The notes: generated from the sequence alone by a model not told the origin. Counted from the first letter of the stretch, positions 28,111-61,518 are shown. The stretch: 64,000 nt of DNA from Rhodocyclales bacterium (GCA_016214145.1 JACRPA010000003.1:186001-250000); one strand, 5' to 3'. Program-made: numbers and translations.

Positions 28111-28136
28111 CGCCGTATCAGGGAGACTGACTTTTC
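28111..28136 (+). repeat. Dispersed GACTGACTTTT motif copy
   Basis: CGCCGTATCAGGGAGACTGACTTTTC. Confidence 0.6.
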
Positions 28137-28276: not shown

Positions 28277-28284
28277 TCGTGACT

Positions 28285-31540: not shown

Positions 31541-32884
31541 TCACAGCAGGGTTCGCCGCATGTCGGCCAGCACCTGCGCGAGATAGGCCGTGAAGCGCGC
31601 CGCCGAGGCGCCGTCGATGACGCGGTGGTCGTAGGACAGCGAGAGCGGCACTAGCAGGCGCGGCTGGAAGGCCTTGCCGTCCCACACCGGTTTCGTCTGC
31701 GACTTCGACACGCCGAGGATGGCCACCTCCGGTGCGTTGATGATCGGCGTGAACGCCGTGCCGCCGATGCCGCCGAGGCTGGAGATGGAGAAGCAGCCGC
31801 CCTGCATCTCGGCCGGGCCGAGCTTGCCCTCGCGCGCCTTGGCGGAGAGCGCGCCCATTTCCTTGGCGATCTCCAGCACGCCTTTTTTGTCGGCGTCGCG
31901 GATCACCGGCACGACCAGGCCGTTCGGCGTGTCGGCGGCGAAGCCGATGTGGAAGTACTGCTTGTACACCAGATTCTCGCCGTCGAGCGAGGCGTTGAAG
32001 TCGGGGAATTTCTTCAGCGCGGCGACCGCCGCCTTGATGAGGAAGGCCAGCATGGTCAGCTTGATTCCCGACTTCTCGTTCTCCTTGTTCAGCTGCACGC
32101 GCAGGGCTTCGAGGTCGCTGATGTCGGCCTCGTCGAACTGCGTGACGTGGGGGATCATCACCCAGTTGCGCGCCAGATTCGCGCCGGAGATTTTCTTGAT
32201 GCGCGAGAGCGGCTTTGCCTCGATCGGGCCGAACTTGGCGAAGTCGACCTGCGGCCAGGGCAGCAGATCGAGTCCGGTGCCGCCGCCGGCGGGCGCCGCA
32301 GCGCTGCGCGGCTGCGCCAGCGCGCCCTTGACGTAGTTCTGCACGTCCTGCTGCAGGATGCGGCCTTTCGGTCCCGTGCCTTTCAGCAGTGCGACGTCGA
32401 CGCCGAGCTCGCGCGCGAAGCGCCGCACCGAGGGGCTGGCGTGGGCGCGATGGCCGCCGATGACCTCGGCGGCGATTGCGGCCGGCGCTGGCAGCGGAGA
32501 AGGCGGAGGCGGGGCGATGGGCTCGGCCGGTGGCTGGGCGGGGGGCGCCGCTTGTAGGTCGGGCTTCAGCCCGATGACCGAAGGAAATCCCTGTGGGACT
32601 TCGGCCGCCGGCTGTCGGCCTGAAGGCCGACCTACGGATTCGTCTGCGCCCGTCTCCAGCAGCAACACCAGCGTGCCCTCGGCGACCTTGTCGCCGATCT
32701 TCAGCCTGATCTCCTTCACCACGCCGGCGGCGGGCGAGGGCACTTCCATGGTGGCCTTGTCGGACTCCAGGGTGACCAGCGGATCCTCCGCCTTCACCGT
32801 GTCGCCGGGACTGACTTCTATGCCGATGACCGGCACGTCCTTGAAGTCGCCGATGTCGGGCACTTTCACTTCGATGACGGACAT
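31541..32884 (-). CDS. aceF: Pyruvate dehydrogenase E2, dihydrolipoyllysine acetyltransferase
   Basis: 447 aa; one lipoyl domain, E3-binding domain, catalytic SLSYDHRVIDGA. Confidence 0.95.
   Translation of the reverse strand: MSVIEVKVPDIGDFKDVPVIGIEVSPGDTVKAEDPLVTLESDKATMEVPSPAAGVVKEIRLKIGDKVAEGTLVLLLETGADESVGRPSGRQPAAEVPQGFPSVIGLKPDLQAAPPAQPPAEPIAPPPPSPLPAPAAIAAEVIGGHRAHASPSVRRFARELGVDVALLKGTGPKGRILQQDVQNYVKGALAQPRSAAAPAGGGTGLDLLPWPQVDFAKFGPIEAKPLSRIKKISGANLARNWVMIPHVTQFDEADISDLEALRVQLNKENEKSGIKLTMLAFLIKAAVAALKKFPDFNASLDGENLVYKQYFHIGFAADTPNGLVVPVIRDADKKGVLEIAKEMGALSAKAREGKLGPAEMQGGCFSISSLGGIGGTAFTPIINAPEVAILGVSKSQTKPVWDGKAFQPRLLVPLSLSYDHRVIDGASAARFTAYLAQVLADMRRTLL
32554..32635. repeat. In-frame palindromic repeat in the aceF lipoyl linker
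   Basis: Same sequence as 30530-30611. Confidence 0.85.
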
Positions 32885-38659: not shown

Positions 38660-38722
38660 GTGGGAGCGGCGTCCACGCCGCGATATCGGCGGCTGCCATC
38701 GCGGCGTGGACGCCGCTCCCAC
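38660..38722. repeat. REP-like palindrome, copy 2
   Basis: GTGGGAGCGGCGTCCACGCCGCGATATCGGCGG ... TCGCGGCGTGGACGCCGCTCCCAC. Confidence 0.9.
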
Positions 38723-38817
38723 ATCCCGAATGCAGGTTAGCGACGGAGTTGGTTGAGGCAAATGAGGGTTAACCCCAAGAGCGTGCGAAAATCCCCGGTG
38801 CCATTCTGCAAACCGTG

Positions 38818-42980: not shown

Positions 42981-43037
42981 ACCCCAATAGCGCCGGCTGC
43001 GGCCGCTGGCTAGACTGTTCCTTCTCTGGAGAATTCC

Positions 43038-43775
43038 TTGCGCGTCGCCCTCTTCGTCACCTGCCTCGCCGACCTGATGCGGCCCGGCGTCGCCTTCGCG
43101 GCGATCCGCCTGCTCGAACACGGCGGCTGCACCGTCGAGGTGCCGCAGACACAGACCTGCTGCGGCCAGCCGGCCTACAACTCGGGCGATCGCGCCACCG
43201 CCATCGCCCTGGCGCGCAAGGTGCTCGTCGAGTTCGAGGGCTTCGACTACGTCGTCGCCCCCTCCGGCTCCTGCGGCGGCATGATCCGCGCCCACTATCC
43301 CGAGCTGTTCCGCGACGATCCCGCCACGCTGAAGCGCATCGAGGCGCTCGCCGCGCGCACCTGGGAGCTCACCGACTTCCTGGCCAATGTGCTCAAGCTC
43401 GACAGCGTGCCCGGCGACTTCAAGGGCACGGTGACCTACCACGACTCCTGCTCCGGCCTGCGCGAGCTGGGCGTCAAGGCGCAGCCGCGCGCGCTGCTGG
43501 CAAAGCTGCCCGGCCTGAAGTTGACCGAGATGAACGAGGCCGAGACCTGCTGCGGCTTCGGCGGCACTTTCTCGCTGAAGTTCGGCGAGGTGTCGACGCA
43601 GCTCGCCGACAACAAGTGCGGTCACGCCTGCGCCACCGGGGCCGACGCCATCGTCGGCGGCGACCTCGGCTGCCTGCTCAACATCGAGGGCCGCCTGCGC
43701 CGTCGCGGCGACCTGAAGACGAAAGTGCTGCATGTGGCCGAGATATTGGCCGGAGATGAAAGGCTAAAAAGCTAA
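43038..43775 (+). CDS. lutA: LutA/YkgE (Fe-S)-binding lactate utilization protein
   Basis: MRVALFVTCLADLMRPGVAFAAIRLLEHGGCTVEVPQTQTCCGQPAYNSGD; paired CCG motifs. Confidence 0.93.
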   Translation: MRVALFVTCLADLMRPGVAFAAIRLLEHGGCTVEVPQTQTCCGQPAYNSGDRATAIALARKVLVEFEGFDYVVAPSGSCGGMIRAHYPELFRDDPATLKRIEALAARTWELTDFLANVLKLDSVPGDFKGTVTYHDSCSGLRELGVKAQPRALLAKLPGLKLTEMNEAETCCGFGGTFSLKFGEVSTQLADNKCGHACATGADAIVGGDLGCLLNIEGRLRRRGDLKTKVLHVAEILAGDERLKS

Positions 43776-43850
43776 CCACCAAGGCACCAAGACACCAAGT
43801 TACACCAAGGTTTTCTTGGTGCTTCTTTGTGTCTTGGTGCCTTGGTGGTT
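43774..43850. repeat. Intergenic palindrome built from ACCAAG units
   Basis: AACCACCAAGGCACCAAGACACCAAG ... CTTGGTGCTTCTTTGTGTCTTGGTGCCTTGGTGGTT. Confidence 0.88.
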
Positions 43851-43860
43851 CAAGGATTTT

Positions 43861-45267
43861 ATGGAACTGCGCTCCAACGAATTCAAGACTCGCGCCGCCG
43901 CCAACCTCGGCGACGAGAAGCTGCAGCGCGGCCTCGGCCTGATCAAGGTGAAGGCGGTGGTGAACCGCGCCAATGCCGTCGCCGAGTTCGGCGACTTCGA
44001 GACGCTGCGCGAAGTCGGCAAGGCCATCCGCGACCGGGCGCTGGCCGACCTCGACCTCTACCTGGAGCGCTTCGAGCGCGAGGCCGTCGCGCGCGGCGCC
44101 GTGGTGCACTGGGCGGAGAACGCCTCCGAGGCCTGCCGCATCGTCGTCGACATCGCCCGCGAGAACGGCGTCAGGACGGTTGCCAAGGCCAAGTCCATGG
44201 TGAGCGAGGAAGTCGGGCTCAACGACGCGCTGATCGAAGCCGGCATCGAGCCGATCGAGACCGACCTCGGCGAGTACATCCTGCAGATCAACGACGCCGA
44301 GCCGCCCTCGCACATCGTCATGCCGGTGATCCACAAGACCGCCGAGGATGTCGCCGATCTCTTCCACGCCAAGCACGGCACGCCGCGCAAGACCGACCCG
44401 GCGGCGCTGACGCGCGAGGCGCGCGAGATCCTGCGGCCGAAATTCCTCTCCGCCGACATGGGCGTCTCCGGCGCCAACTTCCTCATCGCCGAGACCGGCT
44501 CGACGCTGATCGTCACCAACGAGGGCAACGGCCGCCTATGCACCACGCTGCCGCGCCTGCACGTCGCCATCACCGGCATCGAGAAGGTGGTGGCCACACT
44601 CGAAGACGCCTCGACCCTGCTGCGCCTGCTGCCGCGCTCGGCCACCGGCCAGGCCATCACCAACTACGTCTCGCTGCACACCGGGCCGAAGCGCCTGGAG
44701 GAATCCGACGGCCCGCAGCAGTTCCATATCGTGCTGGTGGACAACGGCCGCTCGAAGCTGCTGGCCGGCGAGATGCGCGAGATGCTGCGCTGCATCCGCT
44801 GCGGCGCCTGCATGAACCACTGCCCGGTGTACCAGGCCGTCGGCGGCCACGCTTACGGCTGGGTCTATCCCGGCCCGATGGGCAACATCCTGACGCCGTC
44901 CTACGTCGGCCTGGAGAACGCCATCGCCCTGCCCAACGCGGCGACGATGTGCAACCAGTGCGGCGTCGTCTGCCCGGTGAAGATTCCGCTGCCCGACCTC
45001 ATGCGCAAGCTGCGCGAAGAGCAGATGGAACGCGGCCTCAAGCCATGGCCGGAGCGCCTCGGCCTCGCCCTGTGGGGCTGGGCGGCGCAGCAGCCGGCGC
45101 TCTACGCGCTCGGCACGCGCATTGCCGTGCGCTTCATGAAATGGCTGGGCGGCCGCGAGAAGCTCATCCACCGCCTGCCGCTCGCCTCGGGCTGGAGCGA
45201 CGGGCGCGACTTCCCCGCGCCGGAAGGCCAGACCTTCCGCGAGCTGTACAAGGAGCGCCGCCAATGA
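43861..45267 (+). CDS. lutB: LutB iron-sulfur lactate utilization protein
   Basis: MELRSNEFKTRAAANLGDEKLQRGLG...; CIRCGACMNHCPVY and CNQCGVVCPVKIP ferredoxin motifs. Confidence 0.94.
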   Translation: MELRSNEFKTRAAANLGDEKLQRGLGLIKVKAVVNRANAVAEFGDFETLREVGKAIRDRALADLDLYLERFEREAVARGAVVHWAENASEACRIVVDIARENGVRTVAKAKSMVSEEVGLNDALIEAGIEPIETDLGEYILQINDAEPPSHIVMPVIHKTAEDVADLFHAKHGTPRKTDPAALTREAREILRPKFLSADMGVSGANFLIAETGSTLIVTNEGNGRLCTTLPRLHVAITGIEKVVATLEDASTLLRLLPRSATGQAITNYVSLHTGPKRLEESDGPQQFHIVLVDNGRSKLLAGEMREMLRCIRCGACMNHCPVYQAVGGHAYGWVYPGPMGNILTPSYVGLENAIALPNAATMCNQCGVVCPVKIPLPDLMRKLREEQMERGLKPWPERLGLALWGWAAQQPALYALGTRIAVRFMKWLGGREKLIHRLPLASGWSDGRDFPAPEGQTFRELYKERRQ

Positions 45268-45905
45268 CCGCCCGCGAAAACATTCTCAACCGCGTGCGTT
45301 CGGCGCTCGGGAGAAAAGTCAGTCCCCAGGACACGGCGAGCATCGACGCCCGCATCGCCGCCCACCCCCTCGGCATGCAGCCGCCGCGCGACTGGGAGCC
45401 GGAGCTGCGCTTCCGTGCCCGCGCCGAGGCGCTCGCCAGCACCGTCGAGAAGGTGTCGAGCCTGCAATCGGTGCCCGGCGCCGTGGCGCGCTATCTGGTG
45501 ACGCACGACCTGCCCACCGGCGGCATCTGCTGGCCCAGCCTGCGCAAGCTCGACTGGATCGGCGCCGGCCTCGGCATGGAAGACCGCCCGGCGCGCGGCG
45601 ACGACTTCGTCGGCGTCACCGGCTGCTACTGCGCCATCGCCGAGACCGGCACGCTAATGCTGCTCTCCGGCCCCGATACCCCGGCCGCCGCCAGCCTGCT
45701 GCCGGAGACGCACATCGCCATCGTCGAGACGGCGCGCATCGTGCCCTTCATGGAAGACGCCTGGGCGCTGCTGCGCGCCGAGCGCGGCCGCCTGCCGCGC
45801 GCCGTGAATTTCGTCTCCGGCCCCTCGCGCACCGCCGACATCGAGCAGACCGTGACGATGGGCGCGCACGGGCCTTATCGGGTGCACATCATCCTGGTTG
45901 GCTGA
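45264..45905 (+). CDS. lutC: LutC lactate utilization protein
   Basis: MTARENILNRVRSALGRK...GPSRTADIEQTVTMGAHGPYRVHIILVG*. Confidence 0.93.
   Translation: MTARENILNRVRSALGRKVSPQDTASIDARIAAHPLGMQPPRDWEPELRFRARAEALASTVEKVSSLQSVPGAVARYLVTHDLPTGGICWPSLRKLDWIGAGLGMEDRPARGDDFVGVTGCYCAIAETGTLMLLSGPDTPAAASLLPETHIAIVETARIVPFMEDAWALLRAERGRLPRAVNFVSGPSRTADIEQTVTMGAHGPYRVHIILVG
45313..45339 (-). repeat. Dispersed GACTGACTTTT motif copy, within lutC
   Basis: Reverse strand: TCGCCGTGTCCTGGGGACTGACTTTTC. Confidence 0.6.
45828..45895. repeat. Left copy of 68 bp perfect direct repeat (lutC 3' end) flanking the accessory islet
   Basis: Identical to 49583-49650. Confidence 0.95.
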
Positions 45906-45909
45906 ATCC

Positions 45910-45936
45910 TCGCCGTACTGCGGGGACTGACTTTTT
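45910..45936 (+). repeat. Dispersed GACTGACTTTT motif copy just after the lutC stop
   Basis: TCGCCGTACTGCGGGGACTGACTTTTT. Confidence 0.7.
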
Positions 45937-46001
45937 GTTCGGGAATGTTAGTGCCGGCAGGGAATCGGCCGAAGCGGCGCTGCCGGATGCGCCGCCGGGC
46001 G

Positions 46002-46706
46002 CTATGACCTCCCCAGCCTCTCGTGAATGTCAAACGCCATGATTGCCAGAAAACCCGCCAGCAACAGGTACTGCATGCCGTATTGCAGGCGAACTGCAAG
46101 CGGTGCTCGATAGTATGCGGAGTCCTGCACATTTCGATTCTTGAAAACAGCCCACACTTGCGGAATTGCGACAATGGCAATCAGGATCAGCAGCGGGCTC
46201 GGCCGCCAGAAGAAGAGGCCGACTAGCAATGGGATGCCAAGAAACCAGATCCGAGGCGAAATAACGGAGACAATGCGCCCGCCATCCAGCGGCGAGAGTG
46301 GAATCAGGTTGAACAGGTTAAGCATGAATCCGGCATAGGCCAGCGCCAGCAGCAGGTTGCTTCCCAGTTCGCGTGCCAGGAGGTAGCAGACAAATGCCGC
46401 CGCACTCCCCAATATCGGTCCGGCAATTCCCACGAACGCCTCGGTTTCGGCATTCATGGGCTGCTCTTTCAGTTCGATCCAGGCGCCGACGAATGGAATG
46501 AAAGTCGGGGCCCCGACGTTCAATCCCCGCTGCCTGGCGGCCAGGAAGTGCCCCATTTCGTGGAGAAACAGCAGCACCACGAAACCTACCGCATACCACC
46601 ACCCGTAGACGAATGCATAGGCAAATATGGAAAGCAGCATCGTGCCGCCGGTGGTGAGGAATTTCCCGAGTTTTCCGGCGAGCAACAGGGCGGCCAGGGC
46701 TTTCAC
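46002..46706 (-). CDS. Site-2 protease family (M50) membrane metalloprotease
   Basis: LLFLHEMGHFLAARQRGLNVGAPTFIPFVGAWIELKEQPMNAE; HExxH plus LNLFNLIPLSPLDGGRI. Confidence 0.9.
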   Translation of the reverse strand: MKALAALLLAGKLGKFLTTGGTMLLSIFAYAFVYGWWYAVGFVVLLFLHEMGHFLAARQRGLNVGAPTFIPFVGAWIELKEQPMNAETEAFVGIAGPILGSAAAFVCYLLARELGSNLLLALAYAGFMLNLFNLIPLSPLDGGRIVSVISPRIWFLGIPLLVGLFFWRPSPLLILIAIVAIPQVWAVFKNRNVQDSAYYRAPLAVRLQYGMQYLLLAGFLAIMAFDIHERLGRS

Positions 46707-47062
46707 GTATTCCCCTCCCGCTGACGCAAAGCCTGCTGGTAGGCGCCGTTGATTTCCCTGGTCTTGCGTTCAGCCAGGAGCTTCAATTCATCACCCAGTT
46801 CCGCCACCTTGTCGGGGTGGTATTGGCTCATCAGGGTCTTGTACGAACGCCGAATTTCATCCACCGTGGCGTCAGGCGATACGTTCAGAATGCGATGCCA
46901 TTCTTCGGGGGTGGCGTCCCTGTCTCCCGATGTTTCTAGCCTTGCCTCATGCTCGGGTTCAGTTGGCTTGGGCTTTCCGGCGTTACCCAGCAAGAGCCGC
47001 GAGACTATCCAGTAGCCGACAAAAAGGCCGAAGAGTATTACCAGAATTTCAGTGACGTTCAT
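46703..47062 (-). CDS. Membrane-anchored J-domain protein
   Basis: N-terminal TM, then EEWHRILNVSPDATVDEIRRSYKTLMSQYHPDKVAELGDEL with HPD motif. Confidence 0.88.
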   Translation of the reverse strand: MNVTEILVILFGLFVGYWIVSRLLLGNAGKPKPTEPEHEARLETSGDRDATPEEWHRILNVSPDATVDEIRRSYKTLMSQYHPDKVAELGDELKLLAERKTREINGAYQQALRQREGNT

Positions 47063-47778
47063 GATTCGGCTTCTTCATGAAGTCTTCGGCGATGCGCCTG
47101 CAGCAAACACATGCGCTCCGTTCCCTCTTCCTCGCACTCGATCTCGGAATCCAGCCGCGCCAGGCACCCTGCGCAGGTTGCATGCCAATGACTTGGTTTT
47201 TGCAGTCGCCGTGCCGCAATGACGAGATCCTCTGCCACCGGGATCGACACAGATACATGCCTGATCATATTCAGCGCAAAAGGGGGGCAGATCAACGACT
47301 CAAAGGCCAAGGCGGCAAATCGCCTGTGTGAAATAGAGAGCTGCTCACGCTTATGCCATAGCAACACCAGCGCGACAAGGATGCTGAGATAGAGCGAACC
47401 AATGCCCATAAGCAGCATTCTGTCGCCAAGCCTCGAGAAGAACCCCAAGGGGAAAAGGACAAAGAGGCTGATTGCCATAATCCACACCCAGGGAGCCAGC
47501 GCCATGAAGGCGCCCCTTGGCGGGTCGCAGGCCTCGCTCAGTGGCGCCCCTTCGAATTTCCAGGACAGACGAAACAGAGGGCGGTGGGGCAGAAATGGAT
47601 TGGGGAGAAAGGGCTCTTTCCCCATGATCTGAAAGTTGCGTGAACCGAAACTGACGCCCCAACCATTGCTTCTCCTCGGGAACAGAATCCCCTCATTGCC
47701 GCGAAGCAGAAGCGCGGAATCGTAAACATACAATCCAATGGCGGCTGCCATCAGCAGAATCTCCGCCTGGAAAACCAT
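47059..47778 (-). CDS. Hypothetical membrane protein of the DUF2167 operon
   Basis: MVFQAEILLMAAAIGLYVYDSALLLRGNEGILFPRRSNGWGVSFGSRNFQIMG...; translationally coupled to neighbours. Confidence 0.7.
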   Translation of the reverse strand: MVFQAEILLMAAAIGLYVYDSALLLRGNEGILFPRRSNGWGVSFGSRNFQIMGKEPFLPNPFLPHRPLFRLSWKFEGAPLSEACDPPRGAFMALAPWVWIMAISLFVLFPLGFFSRLGDRMLLMGIGSLYLSILVALVLLWHKREQLSISHRRFAALAFESLICPPFALNMIRHVSVSIPVAEDLVIAARRLQKPSHWHATCAGCLARLDSEIECEEEGTERMCLLQAHRRRLHEEAES

Positions 47779-48611
47779 TACGGCTTGTTGCGCTTGAATA
47801 TCGACCTGAGCCCAGCCATTGCGGCAATTGCCACCCCGACAATCACTTTCCAGAAAGCCGCGAGGAAACCGCCGATCACGGCCCAGAAGCCTTTCTTGGT
47901 GGCGACAGCGGCTGCGCCCCCGACGATCAGGGCGGCAAGTCCATACTCCGCAATCTTGTCCCCCTGCTTGAACTCGGCGTACTTTTCGCCGGAAACATAA
48001 TCGAATTGGTTGAGCGAGGCCTTGAAATCCTGGGTGTTCGCGGTGAGCGCATCCAGATCCGATACCAGTATTGCGCTCATGACGCCCGATCTGCCCAGCA
48101 ATCGGCTGGTGTAGTTGGCGACCGATTTGCCATTCTCTGCTTTGAGTCTCAAGCCCCATTCCAACCGCTTGGATTGGGCATCGTAGTGCGGGGGAACCAC
48201 CCATCCGTCGGTATAAATTGCAGGCATCCCCAAGCGCTTGCGTTCCTCGTTGCCCGGGCCGTCGGATTCCTTCAGCGATTTCAAAAGTGCATCCGGATCG
48301 ATTTTTTCATCGTCCTTCACATAACCGGAGGGCTTGAATGTAAATACCGCGAACCAGTCCAGTGTCTGGGGCCCGAACATGTAGTGCCCGTCCACGGGCG
48401 GGTTTCCCTGCAGCTCGAGGAATCGGCGAGTGTTGGTTGCGTCGAGGAACACATGTCCCTCGGGGACCTTGATGGTTGCCTTGTCGGCGATGCGGCCTTC
48501 AGTCGGACCGACTTGCCAGGCAAGATTTTTTAGCGCAGTTGCTGCCGCTGAATCCGCCTGGCCCCAAACGACCAGCGGCCATATCAGCAACATCCCGAGA
48601 ACGTATCGCAT
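47778..48611 (-). CDS. DUF2167-like membrane-anchored protein
   Basis: Signal peptide, EGHVFLDATNTRRFLELQGNPPVDGHYMFGP..., C-terminal TM segments. Confidence 0.75.
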   Translation of the reverse strand: MRYVLGMLLIWPLVVWGQADSAAATALKNLAWQVGPTEGRIADKATIKVPEGHVFLDATNTRRFLELQGNPPVDGHYMFGPQTLDWFAVFTFKPSGYVKDDEKIDPDALLKSLKESDGPGNEERKRLGMPAIYTDGWVVPPHYDAQSKRLEWGLRLKAENGKSVANYTSRLLGRSGVMSAILVSDLDALTANTQDFKASLNQFDYVSGEKYAEFKQGDKIAEYGLAALIVGGAAAVATKKGFWAVIGGFLAAFWKVIVGVAIAAMAGLRSIFKRNKP

Positions 48612-48829
48612 ATCTCCCCCTTGCTGAATTATGCTTCGAGGAAAGCTCCTCGAATAAATGCTATTGCAATACTATACCCTCGCCATTTCACAATGAACAG
48701 CATTCAGCGCGCCGTGCAAACTTTCAAAATGAAGCAGTCGGCTTCGGTTTTTTCAGTGAAATGCGAAGCTGGGCCTTTGGATTCTCCGGCGCGCGGCGGC
48801 GACCTCGTCGGCTGGACAAGTCTGAAAAA

Positions 48830-49255
48830 CTACCCCCAGGGATTGACCACGGCCAGTCCTGCAATGCCCTTGAAGTCCTTGCCGTTGCGGGTGGCCAGGC
48901 CCAGGTTGTGGCGCAATGCCGTGGCGGCGATCTGGGCGTCTTCGGTGGAGATGGCTTGCCCGCTGCGCATGCGCGCGGCGACGAGCAGCGCGTACTCGGC
49001 GGCGCAGCAGCCGTCGAACGGCAGGGTGCTTCCGGCGAAGTCCTCCACGAACATCTGCTCGGCCGCCGATGCCAGGCCATTGCGGCGCTTGCCGGCGGGT
49101 AGCAGCGCGATGCCCAGCAGTATTTCGGCGCGGGTGACGGCGCTGACGAAATAGGACGCCCTCTGCTGACGGCCGAACCAGTCCAGCACCTCGGCCGCGG
49201 GTTTCGGCCGCATGAGTTCGGACAGCACGTTGGTGTCGAGCAGGATGCCGCCCAT
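48830..49255 (-). CDS. PIN-domain toxin (VapC/FitB type)
   Basis: 141 aa, MGGILLDTNVLSELMRPKPAAEVLDWFGRQQRASYFVSAVTRAEILLGIALLP. Confidence 0.92.
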   Translation of the reverse strand: MGGILLDTNVLSELMRPKPAAEVLDWFGRQQRASYFVSAVTRAEILLGIALLPAGKRRNGLASAAEQMFVEDFAGSTLPFDGCCAAEYALLVAARMRSGQAISTEDAQIAATALRHNLGLATRNGKDFKGIAGLAVVNPWG

Positions 49256-49257
49256 GC

Positions 49258-49503
49258 TCAGCCTTTCGGCGCCGGGGGCAGGCGCGCCGCGCGCCGCTTC
49301 GGAATCGGCAGGGTGTCGGCCTTGAGGCCGGCGAAACGCCGGTGTATCCGTTGCGCGAAGTCCGGCCCGGCGGCCTGCGTCTGCACGGCCCGGCGCAGAA
49401 TGTCGCGCGCCTCCTGTTCCATCGAACAGCCATGGCGCGCCGCCTGCTGGCGCAGCAGGCTTTTCAGTTCATCGTCCAGATTGCGGATCGTCAAATTGGC
49501 CAT
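49258..49503 (-). CDS. FitA-type antitoxin
   Basis: MANLTIRNLDDELKSLLRQQAARHGCSMEQEARDILRRAV; directly upstream of the PIN toxin. Confidence 0.92.
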   Translation of the reverse strand: MANLTIRNLDDELKSLLRQQAARHGCSMEQEARDILRRAVQTQAAGPDFAQRIHRRFAGLKADTLPIPKRRAARLPPAPKG

Positions 49504-49582
49504 GGCATTCCCCCGAGTGCACGCAATGCATGCATTGTAATCAACCAGGCCGCCTCCGGCAAGGCGGGCGCATGGCTTCTCC

Positions 49583-49650
49583 CGCACCGCCGACATCGAG
49601 CAGACCGTGACGATGGGCGCGCACGGGCCTTATCGGGTGCACATCATCCT
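49583..49650. repeat. Right copy of the 68 bp lutC 3'-end direct repeat (orphan gene end)
   Basis: CGCACCGCCGACATCGAGCAGACCGTGACG...CACATCATCCT, followed by CGTCGGTTAG. Confidence 0.95.
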
Positions 49651-49737
49651 CGTCGGTTAGCCCCCTTCATTCCCGCAGAAGCGGGACGCCGCCCGCCGGC
49701 CGTTTGCCCGCCGCCGCCCCGGCTTCCTTGCGCTGAT

Positions 49738-49751
49738 TTGATGTAGCGCAA
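49738..49751 (+). promoter_or_regulatory. Possible FNR/CRP-family box upstream of the FeS/NrfD/cytochrome operon
   Basis: TTGATGTAGCGCAA, imperfect match to TTGATnnnnATCAA. Confidence 0.35.
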
Positions 49752-49894
49752 TGATCTTCGTAAAACTTGATCCAACCCCTTTTCCCAGTCGGAAGCCGCT
49801 TGTATCATCGCGCGACTTCTGACGGCGTCCGCATGAATTCGGCTGGCCGCGAGATTTTCTGCTTTCAATTATTTCCGTTTAAAGGAGGACTGCA

Positions 49895-50989
49895 TTGATG
49901 AACTCCAACGAGACTCCCCCGGCCGATCCGGCCAAGGAGCTATCGGCTGAATGTCCGGCGCCGCCGGCGTCGGCGGATCCCGCCGCCAGCGCCCTGAAGA
50001 CGTCGCGCCGCGACTTCCTCAAGGCCGGCGGCATGCTGAGCCTGTCCTCGCTGATGGGCACCGGGGCGCTGATGGCCCAGTCCGAGGACGCCCACGCGGC
50101 GGCCGAATGGGCCGAGCACTTCCAGAAGAACTACCGCCTGATGACGCCCGAGGAGAAGAACGAGGCGCGCCTCCGGCTGGAACGGCGCCATTCCCAGGAA
50201 TACGGCAAGCAGGTCACGGTCGATATCACCGATGCCCAGCCCGGCATGCTCATGGGCTACGCCCTGAACATCCGCAAGTGCATCGGCTGCCGCCGCTGCG
50301 TGCATGCCTGCGTCGCCGAGAACAACCAGTCGCGCGGCAGCAAGCCCGGCGAAAAGATCGAGTGGATCCAGGTGCTGCGCATGGAGCGCGGCGAGTTCGC
50401 CAAGGACAAGATGAACCACGGCTATCCCGAGGGGCTCGGCATCCAGGTCGGCGGCAACGCCTACACCCCGGCCGGCCAGGTGCTCGAGGGCCAGTACCAC
50501 TACCAGCCCGAGGCGGTGCCGGAGAAGGACGCCACCTACATGCCGATCGCCTGCATGCAGTGCGAGAAGCCGCCCTGCGTCAAGGTCTGCCCGGTGCGCA
50601 CGACCTACCGCGAGGCCGACGGCCCGGTGGTGATCGACTACAACTGGTGCATCGGCTGCCGCATGTGCATGGGCGCCTGCCCCTACTGGGCGCGCCGCAT
50701 CAACCTGACCAGCCCGGTCCTGCCGAAGGAAGAGATGAACCCGGTGACGCACTACCTCGGCAACCGCCCGCGCATGCGCGGCGTCGTCGAGAAGTGCCAC
50801 TGGTGCCTGCAGCGCACCCGCCACAACCGCTACCCGGCCTGCGTCGAGGTCTGCCCGGTCGGCGCGCGCAAGTTCGGCAACCTGCTTGATCCGGAAAGCG
50901 AAGTGAGCAAGATTCTCGAGCGGAAGAACGTCTTCCGTCTCAAGGCCGAGCTCAACACCTTCCCGAAATTCTTCTACTTCTACGATTGA
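49895..50989 (+). CDS. Tat-exported four-cluster ferredoxin (DsrO/HybA-like)
   Basis: Tat motif SRRDFLK; CIGCRRCVHAC, CMQCEKPPCVKVCP, CIGCRMCMGACPYWARR. Confidence 0.9.
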   Translation: MMNSNETPPADPAKELSAECPAPPASADPAASALKTSRRDFLKAGGMLSLSSLMGTGALMAQSEDAHAAAEWAEHFQKNYRLMTPEEKNEARLRLERRHSQEYGKQVTVDITDAQPGMLMGYALNIRKCIGCRRCVHACVAENNQSRGSKPGEKIEWIQVLRMERGEFAKDKMNHGYPEGLGIQVGGNAYTPAGQVLEGQYHYQPEAVPEKDATYMPIACMQCEKPPCVKVCPVRTTYREADGPVVIDYNWCIGCRMCMGACPYWARRINLTSPVLPKEEMNPVTHYLGNRPRMRGVVEKCHWCLQRTRHNRYPACVEVCPVGARKFGNLLDPESEVSKILERKNVFRLKAELNTFPKFFYFYD

Positions 50990-50999
50990 GGAGCGAGCC

Positions 51000-52214
51000 G
51001 TGCAACAACTGACCAGTTTCGCTGCCGACTACACGCGATACGTCCTCAAGGGCGGCACCAAGTTCTACGCCTGGATGGGTTCCCTCGCGGTGCTCATCAT
51101 TGGCATGATGTACGTGTTCTACCTGCAGAACACCGAGGGCCTGATCGTCACCGGCATGACCAGCCAGATCCACGACGGCCTGTATTTCGCCAACCTGGTC
51201 TTCCTCGTCGGCGTCGCCGCCGGGGCGGTGACCATCGTCTTCCCGGCCTATGTCTACCACCACGAGGGCATGCACAAGGTCACGGTGCTGGGCGAGATGC
51301 TGGCGATCTCCGCGGTGATCATGGTGACCATGTTCGTCTTCGCCCACATGGGGCGGCCGGACCGCCTCTGGCACATGATCCCGCTCATCGGCATCTACAA
51401 TTTCCCGCACTCGATGCTGGGCTGGGACGTGCTGGTGCTCACCGGCTACCTGATCCTCAACGCCATCTGCGGCTTCTACTACCTGTGGGTGAAATACACG
51501 GGCGGGGAGATCAACAGGAAGTTCTTCATGCCGCTGGTGTACATCTCGATCGTCTGGGCGCTGTCCATCCACACCGTCACGGCCTTCCTGATCGCGACCA
51601 TGCCGGCGCGCCCGATGTGGTTCCACGGCATGATGCCGATCCGCTTCATCGCCACGGCGTTCGCGGCGGGCCCGTGCCTGATCATCCTGGCCTTCCTGAT
51701 CGTCCGCAGGAACACCAAGATGTGGGTCGAGGACAGCGCGATCGACCTGCTGTCGACCATCGTCACCTGGTGCCTCGGCATCGCGCTGTTCCTGACCATG
51801 TCGGAGGTCGTCGTCGAGCTGTACGCCCGCACCGAGCACGCCAACGGCCTCTACTACCTGATGTTCGGCCTGCACGGCCTCACCGCTCTGGTGCCGTGGT
51901 TCTGGAGTTCCATCGTCCTCATGGTCGCCTCGTTCGTGCTGTTCCTCATCCCGGCCGTGCGCAAGAACTACAAGCTGCTGCCGATCCCCTGCGTCATGGC
52001 CTTCGCCGGCATCTGGATCGAGAAGGGCATGGGCCTGATCGTTCCCGGCTTCGTCCCGACGCCGATCGGCGAGGTGACCGAGTACTACCCGACCTTCGTC
52101 GAGTGGCTGCTGACCCTCGGCATCTGGGCCTTCGGCTTCTTCATCCTGACCATCCTGCTCAAGGGCGCCATCGGCATCCTGCAGGGCGAGATCAAGTACG
52201 GCGCGGCGAAGTGA
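51000..52214 (+). CDS. NrfD/PsrC/DsrP-family polytopic membrane protein (GTG start)
   Basis: 404 aa, many TM segments, follows the FeS gene. Confidence 0.88.
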   Translation: MQQLTSFAADYTRYVLKGGTKFYAWMGSLAVLIIGMMYVFYLQNTEGLIVTGMTSQIHDGLYFANLVFLVGVAAGAVTIVFPAYVYHHEGMHKVTVLGEMLAISAVIMVTMFVFAHMGRPDRLWHMIPLIGIYNFPHSMLGWDVLVLTGYLILNAICGFYYLWVKYTGGEINRKFFMPLVYISIVWALSIHTVTAFLIATMPARPMWFHGMMPIRFIATAFAAGPCLIILAFLIVRRNTKMWVEDSAIDLLSTIVTWCLGIALFLTMSEVVVELYARTEHANGLYYLMFGLHGLTALVPWFWSSIVLMVASFVLFLIPAVRKNYKLLPIPCVMAFAGIWIEKGMGLIVPGFVPTPIGEVTEYYPTFVEWLLTLGIWAFGFFILTILLKGAIGILQGEIKYGAAK

Positions 52215-52224
52215 GGCAACGACC

Positions 52225-53052
52225 ATGAAAAAACTTGCTATTTACACAGTGATTCTCGCCTTCTGCGGCAGCGCGTTCTACGCCGTCTCCGCCGCGGAAC
52301 AGGCGGCAGCACCGGCTGAACCGGCAAAGCAGGAGGCCGCAAAAGAGCCGCCCGTCTGCTTCGAAAGCCGCAAGGGCGCCTCGGAAGTCACCCAGCGCGA
52401 GATCAAGCCGGGCTGGCCCAACGTCAAGTGCTCGCCGACCACCGGCGCGGCGCTCTGGTACGGCGACCCCTACGAGGGCACCGTGCCGATGGGCAAGATG
52501 CCGGGGCTGGAGAAGATTCCCGAGGGCCACGCGCTCATCAAGCCGCGCTCCGAGAAGCTGGCCCTGATGCCGATGTGCGGCACCGCCTGCCACAACGGCG
52601 TCGGCCCGCAGTTCAATCCGCCCAAGCTGCCGAAGGACAAGCGGCCGACACCGATCCCGACCATGGGAGCGATGGTGCCCGACCTCGCGAATTTCCAGCA
52701 CGGCCGCGGCCGCATCTGGTGCCTCGATTGCCACCATACGACCAAGCGCAACATGCTGGTCGACCACTTCGGCGACCCGGTCAGCTTCGACCAGCCGCAG
52801 CTCCTGTGCGGCAAGTGCCACGGCGACAAGCTGCGCGACTGGCGCGACGGCATCCACGGCAAGCGCATCGGCGAGTTCGTCAGCAGCGGCAAGAAGCGCT
52901 GGTTCACCTGCACCGAGTGCCACAACCCGCACAACGTGCAGGACGGCGAGCGCAACCGCGGCTTCGTGCAGTTGCAGCCCGAGCCCTCGCCCCAGCTGCC
53001 CAAGGGCATGAAGGATGCGAAGCATGAGAAGCTGCATCCGATTCCGCACTGA
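52225..53052 (+). CDS. Periplasmic multihaem c-type cytochrome
   Basis: Signal peptide; three CXXCH (CLDCH, CGKCH, CTECH) plus CGTACH (CX3CH). Confidence 0.88.
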   Translation: MKKLAIYTVILAFCGSAFYAVSAAEQAAAPAEPAKQEAAKEPPVCFESRKGASEVTQREIKPGWPNVKCSPTTGAALWYGDPYEGTVPMGKMPGLEKIPEGHALIKPRSEKLALMPMCGTACHNGVGPQFNPPKLPKDKRPTPIPTMGAMVPDLANFQHGRGRIWCLDCHHTTKRNMLVDHFGDPVSFDQPQLLCGKCHGDKLRDWRDGIHGKRIGEFVSSGKKRWFTCTECHNPHNVQDGERNRGFVQLQPEPSPQLPKGMKDAKHEKLHPIPH

Positions 53053-53480
53053 TGTCCGATACACCCGAGAAGCCGAATCCGCTCAGGGGCGATCCAGCCT
53101 GGGTCGCCCCGGCGCTGACGCGCGAGGAAAAAACCCGCAGCGTCGGCAAGACGCCGGTCTTCTTCGGCCCGCCGCTGGCCATCCTCACGGAAGGCCAGAA
53201 GAACACCATGGAGATCAGCGGCAAGCTCAACCGCACGGCGGAGCGCTACCTGGAAATCCAGCGGCACCACGGCCTCGATCTCTCGGAGCCGGAGCGAAAG
53301 TGCATCGCCCACATCTGCCACATCGGCTTCATGTCGCCGCTGGAAATACGCGAACTGCCCTTCGAGGTCAGCCTGAGCAAGTTCGAATGCGAAGGGCTGG
53401 ACAAGGCCGCGCTGGCAAAGAAGCTCGAAGCGGTCAGCTTCGCCGACCTCGTCGCCGTCGTCGAGTCGCTGGGGTTTTAA
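53052..53480 (+). CDS. Hypothetical protein of the FeS/NrfD/cytochrome operon
   Basis: 142 aa, overlaps the cytochrome stop; MSDTPEKPNPLRGDPAWVAPALTREEKTRSVGKTPVFFGPP. Confidence 0.7.
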   Translation: MSDTPEKPNPLRGDPAWVAPALTREEKTRSVGKTPVFFGPPLAILTEGQKNTMEISGKLNRTAERYLEIQRHHGLDLSEPERKCIAHICHIGFMSPLEIRELPFEVSLSKFECEGLDKAALAKKLEAVSFADLVAVVESLGF

Positions 53481-53484
53481 GGCC

Positions 53485-53889
53485 ATGCCGAACCGCGTGC
53501 AATGGGATCCGCGCCTCAGCGTGGGCAATGCAACCCTCGACGCCCAGCACCGGAACCTCCTGGCGCACTGCAACGCCCTGGCCGACTGCCTCGCCGAGGC
53601 AGGCTCCGAAGGCGACCGCAAGTTCCGCCAGGCCTTCGAGGAACTGATGGCCCTCGCGCGCGAGCACTTCGCCGCCGAGGAGGCGCTGCTCGCCTGCGGC
53701 GGCTATCCCGAGCTGGAAGAACACCGGCATGAGCGCGACGAGTTCGATTACCTGGCCGCCGAGATCGTCACCACGGAGAATTTCGACAAGGACGAGCTGC
53801 AGACCTTCCTCGCCCTGTGGTGGACCGGGCACATCCTCGGCTCCGCCAAAAAGCAGCGCGCCTTCCTGGAGCAGCAGCCGGCCGGCTGA
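53485..53889 (+). CDS. Bacteriohemerythrin
   Basis: VQWDPRLSVGNATLDAQHRNLLAHCNAL...AREHFAAEEALLACGGYPELEEHRHERDEF. Confidence 0.92.
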   Translation: MPNRVQWDPRLSVGNATLDAQHRNLLAHCNALADCLAEAGSEGDRKFRQAFEELMALAREHFAAEEALLACGGYPELEEHRHERDEFDYLAAEIVTTENFDKDELQTFLALWWTGHILGSAKKQRAFLEQQPAG

Positions 53890-53912
53890 AGCCGGCCGGC
53901 TGTGCCAGCCCC

Positions 53913-53938
53913 TTCCGTACCGCAGCGGCTGACTTTTC
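53913..53938 (+). repeat. Dispersed GACTGACTTTT motif copy upstream of ccdAB
   Basis: TTCCGTACCGCAGCGGCTGACTTTTC. Confidence 0.6.
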
Positions 53939-53955
53939 AGCACGGGAGGGCTGCA

Positions 53956-53993
53956 TTGACATGCGCTTGTCGATGCGCATAAACTGTGCGCAT
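53956..53993 (+). promoter_or_regulatory. ccdAB promoter with probable CcdA operator
   Basis: TTGACA-N18-TAAACT; ATGCGCA-N7-TGCGCAT inverted repeat over the -10. Confidence 0.65.
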
Positions 53994-54013
53994 CATAATG
54001 TTGGGGCCCTCCC

Positions 54014-54259
54014 ATGCCATCCACCCACAACGCCAATGCGCCGAAAAAAGCCACCAACCTCAGCATCAACGAGGATCTGCTGGCCAAGGCCCGGGAAATG
54101 AACATCAACCTCTCGGCGACCCTGGAGCAGGCCCTGGGCGAGGCCCTGAGGCAGCGGCAGCGGGAGCAATGGCTGGCCGAGAACAAGGAGGCCATTTCGG
54201 CCTATAACGCGCACGTCGAAAAGCATGGCGTGTTCAGCGACCGGCTGCGGAGCTTCTGA
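54014..54259 (+). CDS. ccdA: CcdA antitoxin
   Basis: ATNLSINEDLLAKAREMNINLSATLEQALGEALRQRQREQWLAENKEAISAYNAHVEKHGVFSD. Confidence 0.93.
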   Translation: MPSTHNANAPKKATNLSINEDLLAKAREMNINLSATLEQALGEALRQRQREQWLAENKEAISAYNAHVEKHGVFSDRLRSF

Positions 54260-54576
54260 TGGCCCAGTTCAGCGTTCACCGCAACCCCAACCCGCAGACC
54301 AGGGCGCTCATGCCTTTCCTGCTCGACGTGCAGAGCGACCTGCTGGCCGACCTCGGCACGCGCGTGGTCGTGCCGCTCTGCCCGGCCTCGGCGATGAAGG
54401 GAAAGCTCGTCAGGACCCTGATGCCGGTTTTCCAGATCGACGGCAAGTCCTGCGCGATGCTCGCGCCGCAGCTTGCCGGCATCGAAAAGAAACAGATGGG
54501 GTCGGAAGTCGCCAGCCTCGCGGAACACCGCAACGAAATCATCGCCGCCCTCGATCTGCTGTTCACCGGCATCTGA
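54259..54576 (+). CDS. ccdB: CcdB gyrase-targeting toxin
   Basis: MAQFSVHRNPNPQTRALMPFLLDVQSDLLADLGTRVVVPL...; 1-nt overlap with ccdA. Confidence 0.93.
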   Translation: MAQFSVHRNPNPQTRALMPFLLDVQSDLLADLGTRVVVPLCPASAMKGKLVRTLMPVFQIDGKSCAMLAPQLAGIEKKQMGSEVASLAEHRNEIIAALDLLFTGI

Positions 54577-54585
54577 CTCGACTCG

Positions 54586-54609
54586 TCATTCCCGCGAAAG
54601 CGGGAGTCG
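54586..54609. repeat. ATTCCCGCGAAAGCGGGA palindromic repeat
   Basis: GTCATTCCCGCGAAAGCGGGAGTC; inverted relative of 56018-56042. Confidence 0.75.
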
Positions 54610-54630
54610 TGCGCCCGCAAAGGCTCCTTC

Positions 54631-54656
54631 TCGCCGTCCTGCAGCGGCTGACTTTT
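54631..54656 (+). repeat. Dispersed GACTGACTTTT motif copy downstream of ccdAB
   Basis: TCGCCGTCCTGCAGCGGCTGACTTTT. Confidence 0.7.
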
Positions 54657-54796
54657 CCCGGAATGGAACCAGGGCATCATGCTTGATTGAAGCGCTATGA
54701 GAGGAAAGCCCCCGGTCGAGCGGACCCGGCTACTCCGTCAAAATGCCACGGCCTGCTCAGGCCGAGGACCAGGCCATATCTGCAAACCGCTGAGCA

Positions 54797-54821
54797 ATAG
54801 TCAGTCTCCGCAGGACGGCGA
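54797..54821 (-). repeat. Dispersed GACTGACTTTT motif copy, inverted
   Basis: Reverse strand TCGCCGTCCTGCGGAGACTGACTAT. Confidence 0.6.
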
Positions 54822-54910
54822 GGAGAATGGTTTTTGCAAGTACATGCGCGCCTGGCGCGCCGGAACGCGGCGGGGATGCCGCCTTCACATTGCCTGCCTA
54901 CCTGCCGGCC

Positions 54911-54939
54911 CGTAACAATCCCGTCACATTGACGACATA
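54911..54939 (+). promoter_or_regulatory. PHO box upstream of pstS
   Basis: Three half-sites at 11 bp spacing: CGTAACA-ATCC-CGTCACA-TTGA-CGACATA. Confidence 0.7.
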
Positions 54940-54975
54940 AACTTCGCTCCGCAATCACAGACAAGGAGCGAAGAC

Positions 54976-55986
54976 ATGGTAGAGAAGCACATCAGGCGCG
55001 CGGTGCCCGCGCTGATCCTCGGCCTGGTGGCCGCAGGGGTTGTCCAGGCCCAATCCACTCAATCCAGCGTCGTCAGGATCGACGGCTCGTCCACCGTCTA
55101 TCCCATCACCGAGGCGGTCGCCGAGGAATTCCAGAAGGCCGAGAAGAACGCCATCAAGGTCACCGTCGGCATTTCCGGCACCGGCGGCGGCTTCAAGAAA
55201 TTCTGCCGCGGCGAGACCGACATTTCCGACGCCTCGCGCCCCATCCTGAAGAAGGAGATGGAGGCCTGCGCCGCCGCCGGCATCAAGTACTTCGAACTGC
55301 CGGTCGCCTTCGATGCGCTGACCGTGGTCATCAATCCGAAGAACGCCTTCATCAAGCAGATGACGGTGGAAGAGTTGAAGAAGCTGTGGGAGCCGGGCGC
55401 GCAGGGCAAGATGACGCGCTGGAATCAGGTCAATCCGGCCTGGCCGGATGCGCCGGTGAAGCTGTTCGGCGCCGGTTCCGATTCGGGCACCTTCGACTAC
55501 TTCACCGAGGCCATCGTCGGCAAGGCCAAGTCCAGCCGCGGCGACTACACCGCCTCGGAAGACGACAACGTGCTGGTGCAGGGCGTTGCGCAGGACATCA
55601 ACGCCATCGGCTACTTCGGCTATGCCTACTATGCCGAGAACACCGCCCGGCTGAAGGCGGTGCCGGTGGTGAACCCGAAGGGCAAGGCGGTGCTGCCGTC
55701 CATGGACAACGTCATCAACGGTTCCTACGAGCCGCTGTCGCGCCCGATCTTCATCTATGTAGCCGAGAAGGCCTACGCCCGCGCCGAGGTGAAGAAGTTC
55801 GTCGAGTTCTACCTGAAGCACGGCGCCAAGCTGTCGCGCGAGGTGAAGTACGTGCCGTTGCCGGAGAAGGCCTACACCGGCAACCTGGAGCACCTGAAGA
55901 AGGGCAAGCTGGGCACCGTCTTCGGCGGCACCGCCGAGGTCGGCATCACCATCGACGAGTTGATGAAGCGCGAAGCGAAGCTCTGA
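54976..55986 (+). CDS. pstS: Phosphate ABC transporter substrate-binding protein
   Basis: VVRIDGSSTVYPITEAVAEEFQKAEK...; first gene of pstSCAB-phoU. Confidence 0.94.
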   Translation: MVEKHIRRAVPALILGLVAAGVVQAQSTQSSVVRIDGSSTVYPITEAVAEEFQKAEKNAIKVTVGISGTGGGFKKFCRGETDISDASRPILKKEMEACAAAGIKYFELPVAFDALTVVINPKNAFIKQMTVEELKKLWEPGAQGKMTRWNQVNPAWPDAPVKLFGAGSDSGTFDYFTEAIVGKAKSSRGDYTASEDDNVLVQGVAQDINAIGYFGYAYYAENTARLKAVPVVNPKGKAVLPSMDNVINGSYEPLSRPIFIYVAEKAYARAEVKKFVEFYLKHGAKLSREVKYVPLPEKAYTGNLEHLKKGKLGTVFGGTAEVGITIDELMKREAKL

Positions 55987-56957
55987 TGTCCGTCAGCGCC
56001 GCCAGTTCAGAGACCCTGGATTCCCGCTTTCGCGGGAATGACGGCGCGGCCTCTGCCGCAGGCCGCCTGGCCCGCCGCGCCTCGCGCCGCCTCAAGGAAA
56101 AGGTCATCGAATCGATCCTTTTCCTGGCGGCGCTGGTGTCGGTGTTCACGACGCTGGGCATCGTCTACATCCTGGTGTCGGAATCCGTGGTGTTTTTCCG
56201 CCACGTGCCGCTCCGGGATTTCCTCACCGACACGCAGTGGACGCCGCTGTTCGACGACGCCCACTTCGGCATCATGGTGCTGCTGTCGGGCACGCTGGTC
56301 AGCTCGGCGGTGGCGTTGCTGGTCGCCATTCCGCTCGGCACCGTGATCGCGGTGTTCCTCTCGGAATTCGCCGGGCCGCGCCTGCGCGAAACCGTCAAGC
56401 CGATGCTGGAGCTGCTCTCCGGCGTGCCGACCATCGTCTTCGGCTATTTCGCCCTGATGTTCGTCACGCCGCTCCTGCAGAAGTTCATCCCCGGACTGCC
56501 CGGCTTCAACCTGCTGTCCGCCGGCATCGTCATGGGCATCATGATCATTCCGACCGTCAGTTCCATCGCCGAGGACGCCATGCGCGCCGTGCCGATGAAT
56601 CTGCGCGAAGGCTCCTACGCCATGGGCGCCACCCGCCTGCAGACCGCCCTCAAGGTCGTCGTGCCGGCGGCCTTCTCCGGCATCATGGCGGCCTACATCC
56701 TCGGCATCTCGCGGGCGGTGGGCGAGACCATGATCCTCGCCGTCGCCGCCGGCATGCAGCCCAACCTGACCTGGAACCCGACCGAGCCGGCCGCCACCAT
56801 CACCGCCTACATCGTGCAGGTGGCGCTGGGCGACCTGCCGCACGGCAGCGTCGGCTACCAGACCATCTTCGCCGCCGGCCTGACGCTGATGCTGATCACG
56901 CTGCTGTTCAACATCCTCGGCTACTGGCTGCGCAAACGCTACCGGGAGCGGTATTGA
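55986..56957 (+). CDS. pstC: Phosphate ABC transporter permease PstC
   Basis: Permease with EEAMRAVP/ALGATRLQT-type loop; N-terminal extension contains a translated palindromic repeat. Confidence 0.93.
   Translation: MSVSAASSETLDSRFRGNDGAASAAGRLARRASRRLKEKVIESILFLAALVSVFTTLGIVYILVSESVVFFRHVPLRDFLTDTQWTPLFDDAHFGIMVLLSGTLVSSAVALLVAIPLGTVIAVFLSEFAGPRLRETVKPMLELLSGVPTIVFGYFALMFVTPLLQKFIPGLPGFNLLSAGIVMGIMIIPTVSSIAEDAMRAVPMNLREGSYAMGATRLQTALKVVVPAAFSGIMAAYILGISRAVGETMILAVAAGMQPNLTWNPTEPAATITAYIVQVALGDLPHGSVGYQTIFAAGLTLMLITLLFNILGYWLRKRYRERY
56018..56042. repeat. Palindromic repeat translated in the PstC N-terminus
   Basis: GGATTCCCGCTTTCGCGGGAATGAC encoding LDSRFRGNDG. Confidence 0.8.
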
Positions 56958-59422: not shown

Positions 59423-59486
59423 GCGGGAGCGGCGTCCTCGCCGCGAAAGCAGCCGCCGAGATCGCGGCGTGGACGCCGCTCCCACA
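59423..59486. repeat. REP-like palindrome, copy 3 (diverged left arm)
   Basis: GCGGGAGCGGCGTCCTCGCCGCGA ... ATCGCGGCGTGGACGCCGCTCCCAC. Confidence 0.88.
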
Positions 59487-60216: not shown

Positions 60217-61518
60217 ATGCCTTCGGCCTGGCTTTCCCTGCTGATCCGCCTGCTTGCCGCCGTCCTGGCGGGACTGACTTCTGGTTTCATCCTCGGCGCC
60301 GTGGCGGGCGTGGCCGCCGCCGCCGGCCTGCTGCTGCTGATGCTGCTTGCGCATACGGCGCAACTGGCGCGCCTGCAGCGCTGGCTCAAGGCGCCCGACG
60401 AGCGCGACATCCCCGACGCCCGGGGCGTCTGGGGCAGCGTCTTCGTCGAGCTGCATCGCCTGCTGCGGCGCGAGCGCAAGGTGCGCGCGCGCATCGAAGC
60501 CGAGCTGGAGGTTTTCAGCCAGGCGGCGGAAGCCTCGCCGGACGGCCTGGTCTTCCTCGACATCGACGACCACATCGTCTGGTGCAACCGCGTCGCCGAA
60601 CAGCACCTCGGCCTGCGCGGCGAGCGGGATAGCGGCCTGCTGGTCACCAACCTGATCCGCCTGCCGCGCTTCGCCGAATTCCTCGCCAATGCCAGGGAAG
60701 GCGAGTCGCTGTCGTACCGGCCGGCGGAGAGGAAGGGCCGGGTTTTCTCCATCGAGGCCATCCGCTTCGGCAAGGACCGCAAGCTGCTGATCAGTTCCGA
60801 CGTCTCGCACATCGAACGGGCGGAGACGATGCGCCGCGATTTCGTCGCCAACGTCTCGCACGAACTGCGCACGCCGCTGACAGTGATTTCCGGTTTCATC
60901 GAGCACATGGCCGACGATCCGGCGCCGGACCCCGCCGAGTGGAAGCAGCAGATGGCCATGGTGGACGAGCAGGCGGGGCGCATGCTGAACCTGGTCGACG
61001 ACCTGCTGACCCTGTCGCGGCTGGAGGACGAAACGCAGATGCCGCGCGAGGAGGAGTTCGACGTGCGTGACCTGATCTACGACGTGTCGGCGGAAGGGCG
61101 GCGGCTCTCCGCCGGCCGCCACTCCATCACCTGCGAAGTGGTGCCGGCTTTCCTGAAGGGCAGCCGGGAGGAACTGCGCAGCGCCTTCGCGAACCTCGTC
61201 AGCAATGCCGTCCGCTACACGCCGGCGGGCGGGCGCATCGTGCTGCACTGGGCCATGCGCGACGGCAAGGGCGTCTTCAGCGTCGAGGACAGCGGCATCG
61301 GCATCCCCGAGGAGCACTTGCCGCGCCTGACGGAGCGCTTCTACCGCGTCGATCGCGGCCGCTCGCGCGAATCGGGCGGGACGGGACTCGGCCTGTCCAT
61401 CGTCAAGCACATCCTGCTGCGCCACCAGGCCGCGCTCGATATTGGTTCCGTCGCAGCGACCGGCAGCACCTTCAGCGCCGTTTTTCCGGCCTGGCGCGTC
61501 AAGCTGCCGATGGCCTGA
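60217..61518 (+). CDS. phoR: Phosphate regulon sensor histidine kinase PhoR
   Basis: PAS, HisKA FVANVSHELRTPLTVISGFIEHM, ATPase GGTGLGLSIVKHIL. Confidence 0.93.
   Translation: MPSAWLSLLIRLLAAVLAGLTSGFILGAVAGVAAAAGLLLLMLLAHTAQLARLQRWLKAPDERDIPDARGVWGSVFVELHRLLRRERKVRARIEAELEVFSQAAEASPDGLVFLDIDDHIVWCNRVAEQHLGLRGERDSGLLVTNLIRLPRFAEFLANAREGESLSYRPAERKGRVFSIEAIRFGKDRKLLISSDVSHIERAETMRRDFVANVSHELRTPLTVISGFIEHMADDPAPDPAEWKQQMAMVDEQAGRMLNLVDDLLTLSRLEDETQMPREEEFDVRDLIYDVSAEGRRLSAGRHSITCEVVPAFLKGSREELRSAFANLVSNAVRYTPAGGRIVLHWAMRDGKGVFSVEDSGIGIPEEHLPRLTERFYRVDRGRSRESGGTGLGLSIVKHILLRHQAALDIGSVAATGSTFSAVFPAWRVKLPMA
60258..60282 (+). repeat. Dispersed motif-like copy within phoR
   Basis: CGCCGTCCTGGCGGGACTGACTTCT. 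Confidence 0.4.

Follow-up and report, generated by a model that had tools for sequence, protein, structure and literature searches.

The 68-bp direct repeat at the 3' end of lutC in this Candidatus Desulfobacillus genome probably arose at a variable site where the chromosome recombined with a divergent lutC allele and a FitAB toxin-antitoxin module then inserted into the redundant copy; we give this reading a probability of roughly 60%. The window we analysed is a stretch of 64,000 nucleotides from a Rhodocyclales genome (GCA_016214145.1), and positions are counted from its first letter (Table 1). Relatives are named by handle (G002, L126 and so on).

The two copies, 45828-45895 and 49583-49650, are exactly identical over 68 bp, as a sequence-only reading of this DNA had reported. 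This pair is the sole repeat of 20 bp or more that touches the lutC locus, and across the assembly the 68-bp repeat has one further match, in a lutC paralogue located elsewhere that is 60% identical. Where the identity ends the left copy reads CTGGTTGGCTGA and the right copy CTCGTCGGTTAG, each encoding L-V-G-stop, which was also described correctly. Eight of the 87 bases that run from GGC through the stop codon distinguish the copies, 3 of them in the first nine, none in the next 68 and 5 in the last ten. Because L-V-G-stop is preserved, an outcome with a probability of ~2e-5 for random codons (an arithmetic estimate), the right copy is a real lutC end rather than a chance match. Orthologues of lutC in the genus are 75-92% identical; the 68-bp core has at least two differences from every relative yet none between the copies, which suggests that the donor was close or that the core was homogenised.

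The right copy had been taken for an orphan gene end with no gene upstream. This proved wrong, as a second lutC fragment lies at 48785-48812 (fragment A), with an alignment score of 44-51 against shuffle maxima of 24-28. A genome-wide search finds its pattern with fewer than 3 mismatches only at lutC and at this position. Across FitAB, at the very end of the module, the lutC homology of the right copy resumes at ~49577-49579 (fragment B). The fragments are collinear, on the same strand as lutC, and have exactly FitAB between them. Since fragment A lies to the left of FitAB and the FitAB edge abuts the resumed lutC homology, the right copy is the tail of a longer relic, lutC'. Fragments A and B together make up the 3' half of another lutC allele, reaching from codon ~108 to its stop (the last ~319 bp), with FitAB in the place of ~209 bp; the 68-bp repeat is the remnant of a duplicated stretch of 319 bp or more. 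To the left of 48785 no lutC remnant scored above the shuffles. The length of fragment A, just 28 bp, counts against the recombination reading.

lutC' has bases that are common to relatives and absent from intact lutC, namely the codons CTC GTC at its end and, in fragment A, a C at the one position where intact lutC has T. The right copy continues with TAG and then with a CATTCCCGC...GCGGGA repeat, and its 3' flank shows no relation to that of the left copy. In L126 a TAG end is likewise followed by such a repeat, and in G009 a TAG end stands beside the redox cluster; an extra Ala codon is present in both. As the flank and stop of the right copy differ from those of the left, and as TAG ends are known in these two relatives, lutC' is a different allele. 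The suggestion that the right copy derives from a lutC end that used to be functional is supported; its codons and stop are those of another allele. Empty sites ending in GTCGGTTAG had also been envisaged; none was found, the 12 of 12 compared genus lutC ends being TGA, and in the two TAG ends (G009, L126) an extra Ala codon comes first. Two observations count against the recombination reading here: none of the genus lutC ends compared is exactly GTCGGTTAG, and the TAG-ended lutC genes of G009 and L126 have other flanks, which bears on which copy was resident. The hairpin repeat CATTCCCGC...GCGGGA is dispersed, occurring at 49668-49690, 54584-54605 and 56022-56043, in G002, G004 and G007, and after lutC in L126.

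On the left side, five relatives (G005, G006, G007, G010 and L116) have the motif seen at 45911-45933 a few bases past the lutC stop. Alignments pass through this post-stop motif in the first four, not in L116, and the left inner flank remains alignable beyond the stop, up to 45933-45935, with the flanks of lutC in the relatives. The sequence immediately inside the left copy is thus native lutC flank, and since it is native in five relatives the insert cannot start there. A cassette bounded by 68-bp repeats, as first proposed, is consequently not supported, given a native inner-left flank, a right copy that is a relic tail, and a cargo of two origins.

Table 1. Positions of the features between lutC and the pstS-like gene, counted within the 64,000-nucleotide window
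Feature	Position	Strand	Evidence or remark
lutC, intact, LUD domain, last gene of lutABC, ends CTGGTTGGCTGA	45264..45905	+	Pfam LUD_dom 1.7e-31
Motif M, exact copy inside lutC	45316..45338	-	
Left copy of the 68-bp identity, native lutC 3' end	45828..45895	+	exact repeat
Motif M, exact copy just past the lutC stop	45911..45933	+	
AT-richer inserted segment with four-gene operon	45936..48784		56.5% GC vs 65.4% for the window
M50 family membrane peptidase	46002..46706	-	Pfam Peptidase_M50 2.2e-16
Membrane-anchored J-domain protein	46703..47062	-	Pfam DnaJ 2e-11
Membrane protein without Pfam match, conserved operon member	47059..47781	-	30-51% identity, same order elsewhere
DUF2167 protein, first gene of the operon	47778..48611	-	Pfam DUF2167 4.5e-58
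lutC' fragment A, matches lutC 45587-45614	48785..48812	+	27/28 to lutC of G002 and G005
FitAB module between the lutC' fragments	48813..49576	-	PIN toxin 48830-49255, RHH antitoxin 49258-49503
lutC' fragment B, holds the right repeat copy (core 49583-49650), ends CTCGTCGGTTAG	49577..49660	+	
4Fe-4S / NrfD / multihaem cytochrome cluster (redox cluster)	49705..53889	+	
CcdAB toxin-antitoxin pair	54014..54576	+	
PstS-like phosphate-binding protein gene, conserved right border	54976..55986	+	Pfam PBP_like_2 4.4e-37, synteny

The gene content had been read correctly: an M50 protease, a DnaJ-domain protein, a membrane protein, a DUF2167 protein and a FitA-like RHH plus PIN pair, all antisense and without an integrase. 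A Pfam search of the segment found no integrase, recombinase or phage gene, and Rfam gave no match over 43000-56500. The segment 45936-48784 is absent from the other 15 genomes of the genus, and DUF2167 occurs in 19 of 250 genomes of the order. In other Burkholderiales families (G046, G137, G176) the same four genes stand in the same order, with DUF2167 proteins 68-69% and M50 proteins 70-83% identical to those found here; the set forms a conserved operon that was acquired at this site. FitAB has a GC content of 67%, and modules 88-91% identical to it are sited elsewhere in G002 and G003. Its homology edge falls at 49567 with G002 and at 49576 with G003, where motif M (described below) follows. 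The cargo is a composite of two unrelated origins, an AT-richer operon and a GC-rich FitAB.

A comparison across species, not strains, shows that Candidatus Desulfobacillus has a variable site in the interval from lutC to the pstS-like gene, ranging from 220 bp (empty) to 9 kb. Both borders are retained and the contents differ in G000, G001, G002, G004, G006, G007 and G011. The interval is empty in G011 (220 bp) and holds a hydrolase in G001, a ParE pair in G006, an AAA protein in G004 and HicA in L126. That of G007 contains CcdAB, a cytochrome c'-like protein and ParE, and that of G002 contains CcdAB, the redox cluster, a Gp49/HTH pair and FitAB, so that the positions of FitAB and CcdAB are exchanged between G002 and the present genome. 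CcdAB lies directly 3' of lutC in G002, G005 and G007. The redox cluster adjoins lutC in G002 and G009 too, and is found elsewhere in G001, G006, G007 and G010. G009 (L064) has no motif M, and at this locus there is no lutAB before its shortened lutC, which stands directly before the redox cluster.

From this arrangement we infer a crossover and an order of events, with either allele as the possible resident. DNA of a close relative would have recombined with the chromosome through lutC, by a single crossover or a one-sided event, leaving the DUF2167 operon between intact lutC and a redundant, 5'-truncated second lutC end. FitAB would later have inserted into lutC', replacing ~209 bp, and what looks like a cassette-bounding direct repeat would be the part of lutC' that was left over. 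The two lutC alleles at one locus fit a presumed homologous recombination in the flanking genes, in a comparison across species.

The nearest competitor, which we consider unlikely, is an insertion with long target duplication, in which ~70-320 bp of the lutC end were copied and the two copies, sharing an ancestor, later diverged. Exactly such an event seems to have taken place 25 kb upstream, where an R-M-like unit (17740-20093) encodes, by inspection, a DNA methyltransferase-like protein and a second protein of restriction-enzyme type. The unit lies between 89-bp copies (17740-17828 and 20005-20093); G001, G002 and G010 have empty sites with one copy, and both outer flanks are native. The 89-bp stretch is the overlap of the convergent LysR and SuhB 3' ends, and since it is this overlap that was copied both genes stay whole. 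We regard this unit as a probable insertion with long target duplication, and a duplication of at least 319 bp followed by FitAB insertion would likewise explain both fragments of lutC'. However, such an insertion leaves relatives with a single copy, native outer flanks and foreign inner flanks, whereas at lutC the inner-left flank is native and carries the motif at its usual spacing. A pattern of 5 differences within the final 10 bases but 0 within 68 is, moreover, uneven for simple divergence. The lutC islet is accordingly not, as had been supposed, of the same design as the upstream cassette. A 273-bp element (19729-20001) with terminal inverted repeats of 29 bp lies directly against the SuhB stop codon; G001 has a copy elsewhere (L233:8237-8507).

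Less probable still is an ancient tandem duplication of lutC, in which the DUF2167 operon and FitAB inserted, the second copy then decayed and gene conversion preserved the core. This would account for the coding-type differences between lutC' and lutC and for the exactly shared 68-bp core, but the other genus genomes with lutC have no adjoining second copy (the 60% paralogue lies elsewhere) and the two copies have unrelated 3' flanks. A site-specific, att-type element is disfavoured and has only a small probability in our view. An element carrying an attP-like gene end would have integrated in lutC, restored its 3' end and displaced the old end to the right, leaving lutC intact and the synonymous codons and stop different after the identity block, as is the case here. 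Yet the segment has no integrase, recombinase or phage gene, the flank supposedly restored is the flank native to the genus, and the lutC homology of the right copy exceeds 68 bp, reaching across FitAB to 48785. An assembly chimera, judged from the assembly sequence, is very unlikely, given 12 contigs at 99.99% completeness, FitAB/lutC' junctions and a DUF2167 operon that are each coherent, and a lutC' distinct from lutC.

Several known systems resemble the locus in part. In the icd att sites of e14 and P21 the element carries a copy of the gene end and integrates site-specifically. The lutC end is similarly duplicated with synonymous differences, but the islet has no integrase, its homology extends beyond the core and its flank is native. 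Minimal mobile elements of Neisseria (Saunders & Snyder 2002), as defined in PMC3082526, are like the lutC interval in that different whole-gene cassettes lie between lutC and the pstS-like gene with no dedicated recombinase, and homologous recombination in the borders would be the natural explanation. They differ in that the lutC interval is compared across species, with recombination and natural transformation presumed here, and in the additional leftover lutC'. Insertion with long target duplication has been described for R-M units (Nobusato et al. 2000, cited in PMC3874152). The upstream unit fits this description, and the lutC islet likewise has a duplicated gene end, but its flanks do not fit and its cargo is not R-M.

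A bipartite motif, CGCCGT-N8-GACTGACTT(TT), which we term motif M, came to light from the sequence that follows lutC and recurs across the genome. Its exact copies number 336 in this genome (165 forward and 171 reverse, with 0 and 1 for the reversed control), 372 in G002, 300 in G001, 101 in G011 and none in G009 (reversed controls 0-1). With one mismatch allowed, 13 of the 16 genus genomes have more than 200 copies, while outside the genus, in samples of the family and the order, the motif is missing from most genomes and no genome has more than 13 copies. Within 1.19 Mb, 75 of 116 copies (~65%) are intragenic and fall in five of the six frame/orientation classes, and 103 of the 116 have distinct middles, as is expected of copies with an independent origin at each site. 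The motif stands at the same place of lutC in 10 of 12 orthologues; in the ten-orthologue alignment 1 of its 15 fixed columns is variable, as against 5 of the 8 middle columns and 57% of those flanking it, in the region where lutC is conserved least. Copies in the hundreds, far above chance, on both strands and clade-specific, are what characterises uptake sequences, and a ComEC homologue is present. Motif M looks like an undescribed DNA-uptake sequence, for which it is a candidate.

Other functions for motif M were considered and rejected. As a transcription terminator it would be expected to fold, which only some copies do, and two thirds are intragenic in both orientations; the nearly always different middles speak against a copied repeat, the balanced strands, mixed along 390 kb, against a replication-polar signal, and the mere 11 viral contigs, with one copy each, against a viral element. 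Further copies in the window lie at 612-634, 28111-28133 and 60258-60280. A second dispersed inverted repeat family, TGTGGGAGCGGCGTCCACGCCGCGAT, occurs at 28212-28278, 38660-38725 and 59461-59486. Near-identical repeats at 30529-30836 and 32553-32860 lie in two neighbouring gene ends, biotinyl/lipoyl-domain-like by inspection, and are duplicated in relatives too.

With the DUS of Neisseriaceae and the USS of Pasteurellaceae motif M shares hundreds of copies, balanced strands, ~65% intragenic positions, clade specificity and conservation at the DNA level. It differs in being bipartite over 23-25 bases, in occurring outside both families and in that inverted-pair terminators are rare, and it is a candidate by sequence. 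Foreign regions in Neisseria are poor in uptake sequences (PMC2397512), a caution that bears on the uptake reading: the DUF2167 segment likewise has no motif M. In the literature searched, no paper couples an uptake sequence with Rhodocyclaceae or reports such a motif in this group, matches to the motif core string have titles unrelated to Candidatus Desulfobacillus, and the genome paper of Ca. D. denitrificans makes no mention of competence, transformation or repeats. One may tentatively propose, at somewhat less than even odds, that CGCCGT-N8-GACTGACTTTT is the uptake sequence of Candidatus Desulfobacillus, a third lineage beside Neisseriaceae and Pasteurellaceae. According to this proposal lutC, which contains one copy of the motif and is closely followed by another, would be a natural entry point, and transformation and homologous recombination would repeatedly reshuffle the lutC-pstS interval, leaving lutC' behind.

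Allelic recombination followed by a toxin-antitoxin insertion can leave behind a gene-end repeat with synonymous differences. As the lutC repeat can be such a residue, repeats of this kind should be searched for longer relics before any mobile element is proposed. The lutC islet alone is moderately interesting, and motif M deserves a study of its own. Only two bacterial families are known to take up DNA in a sequence-specific manner (PMC3630211); if the proposal is true, an independent, bipartite uptake sequence in betaproteobacteria of anammox reactors would make the origin of uptake specificity testable.
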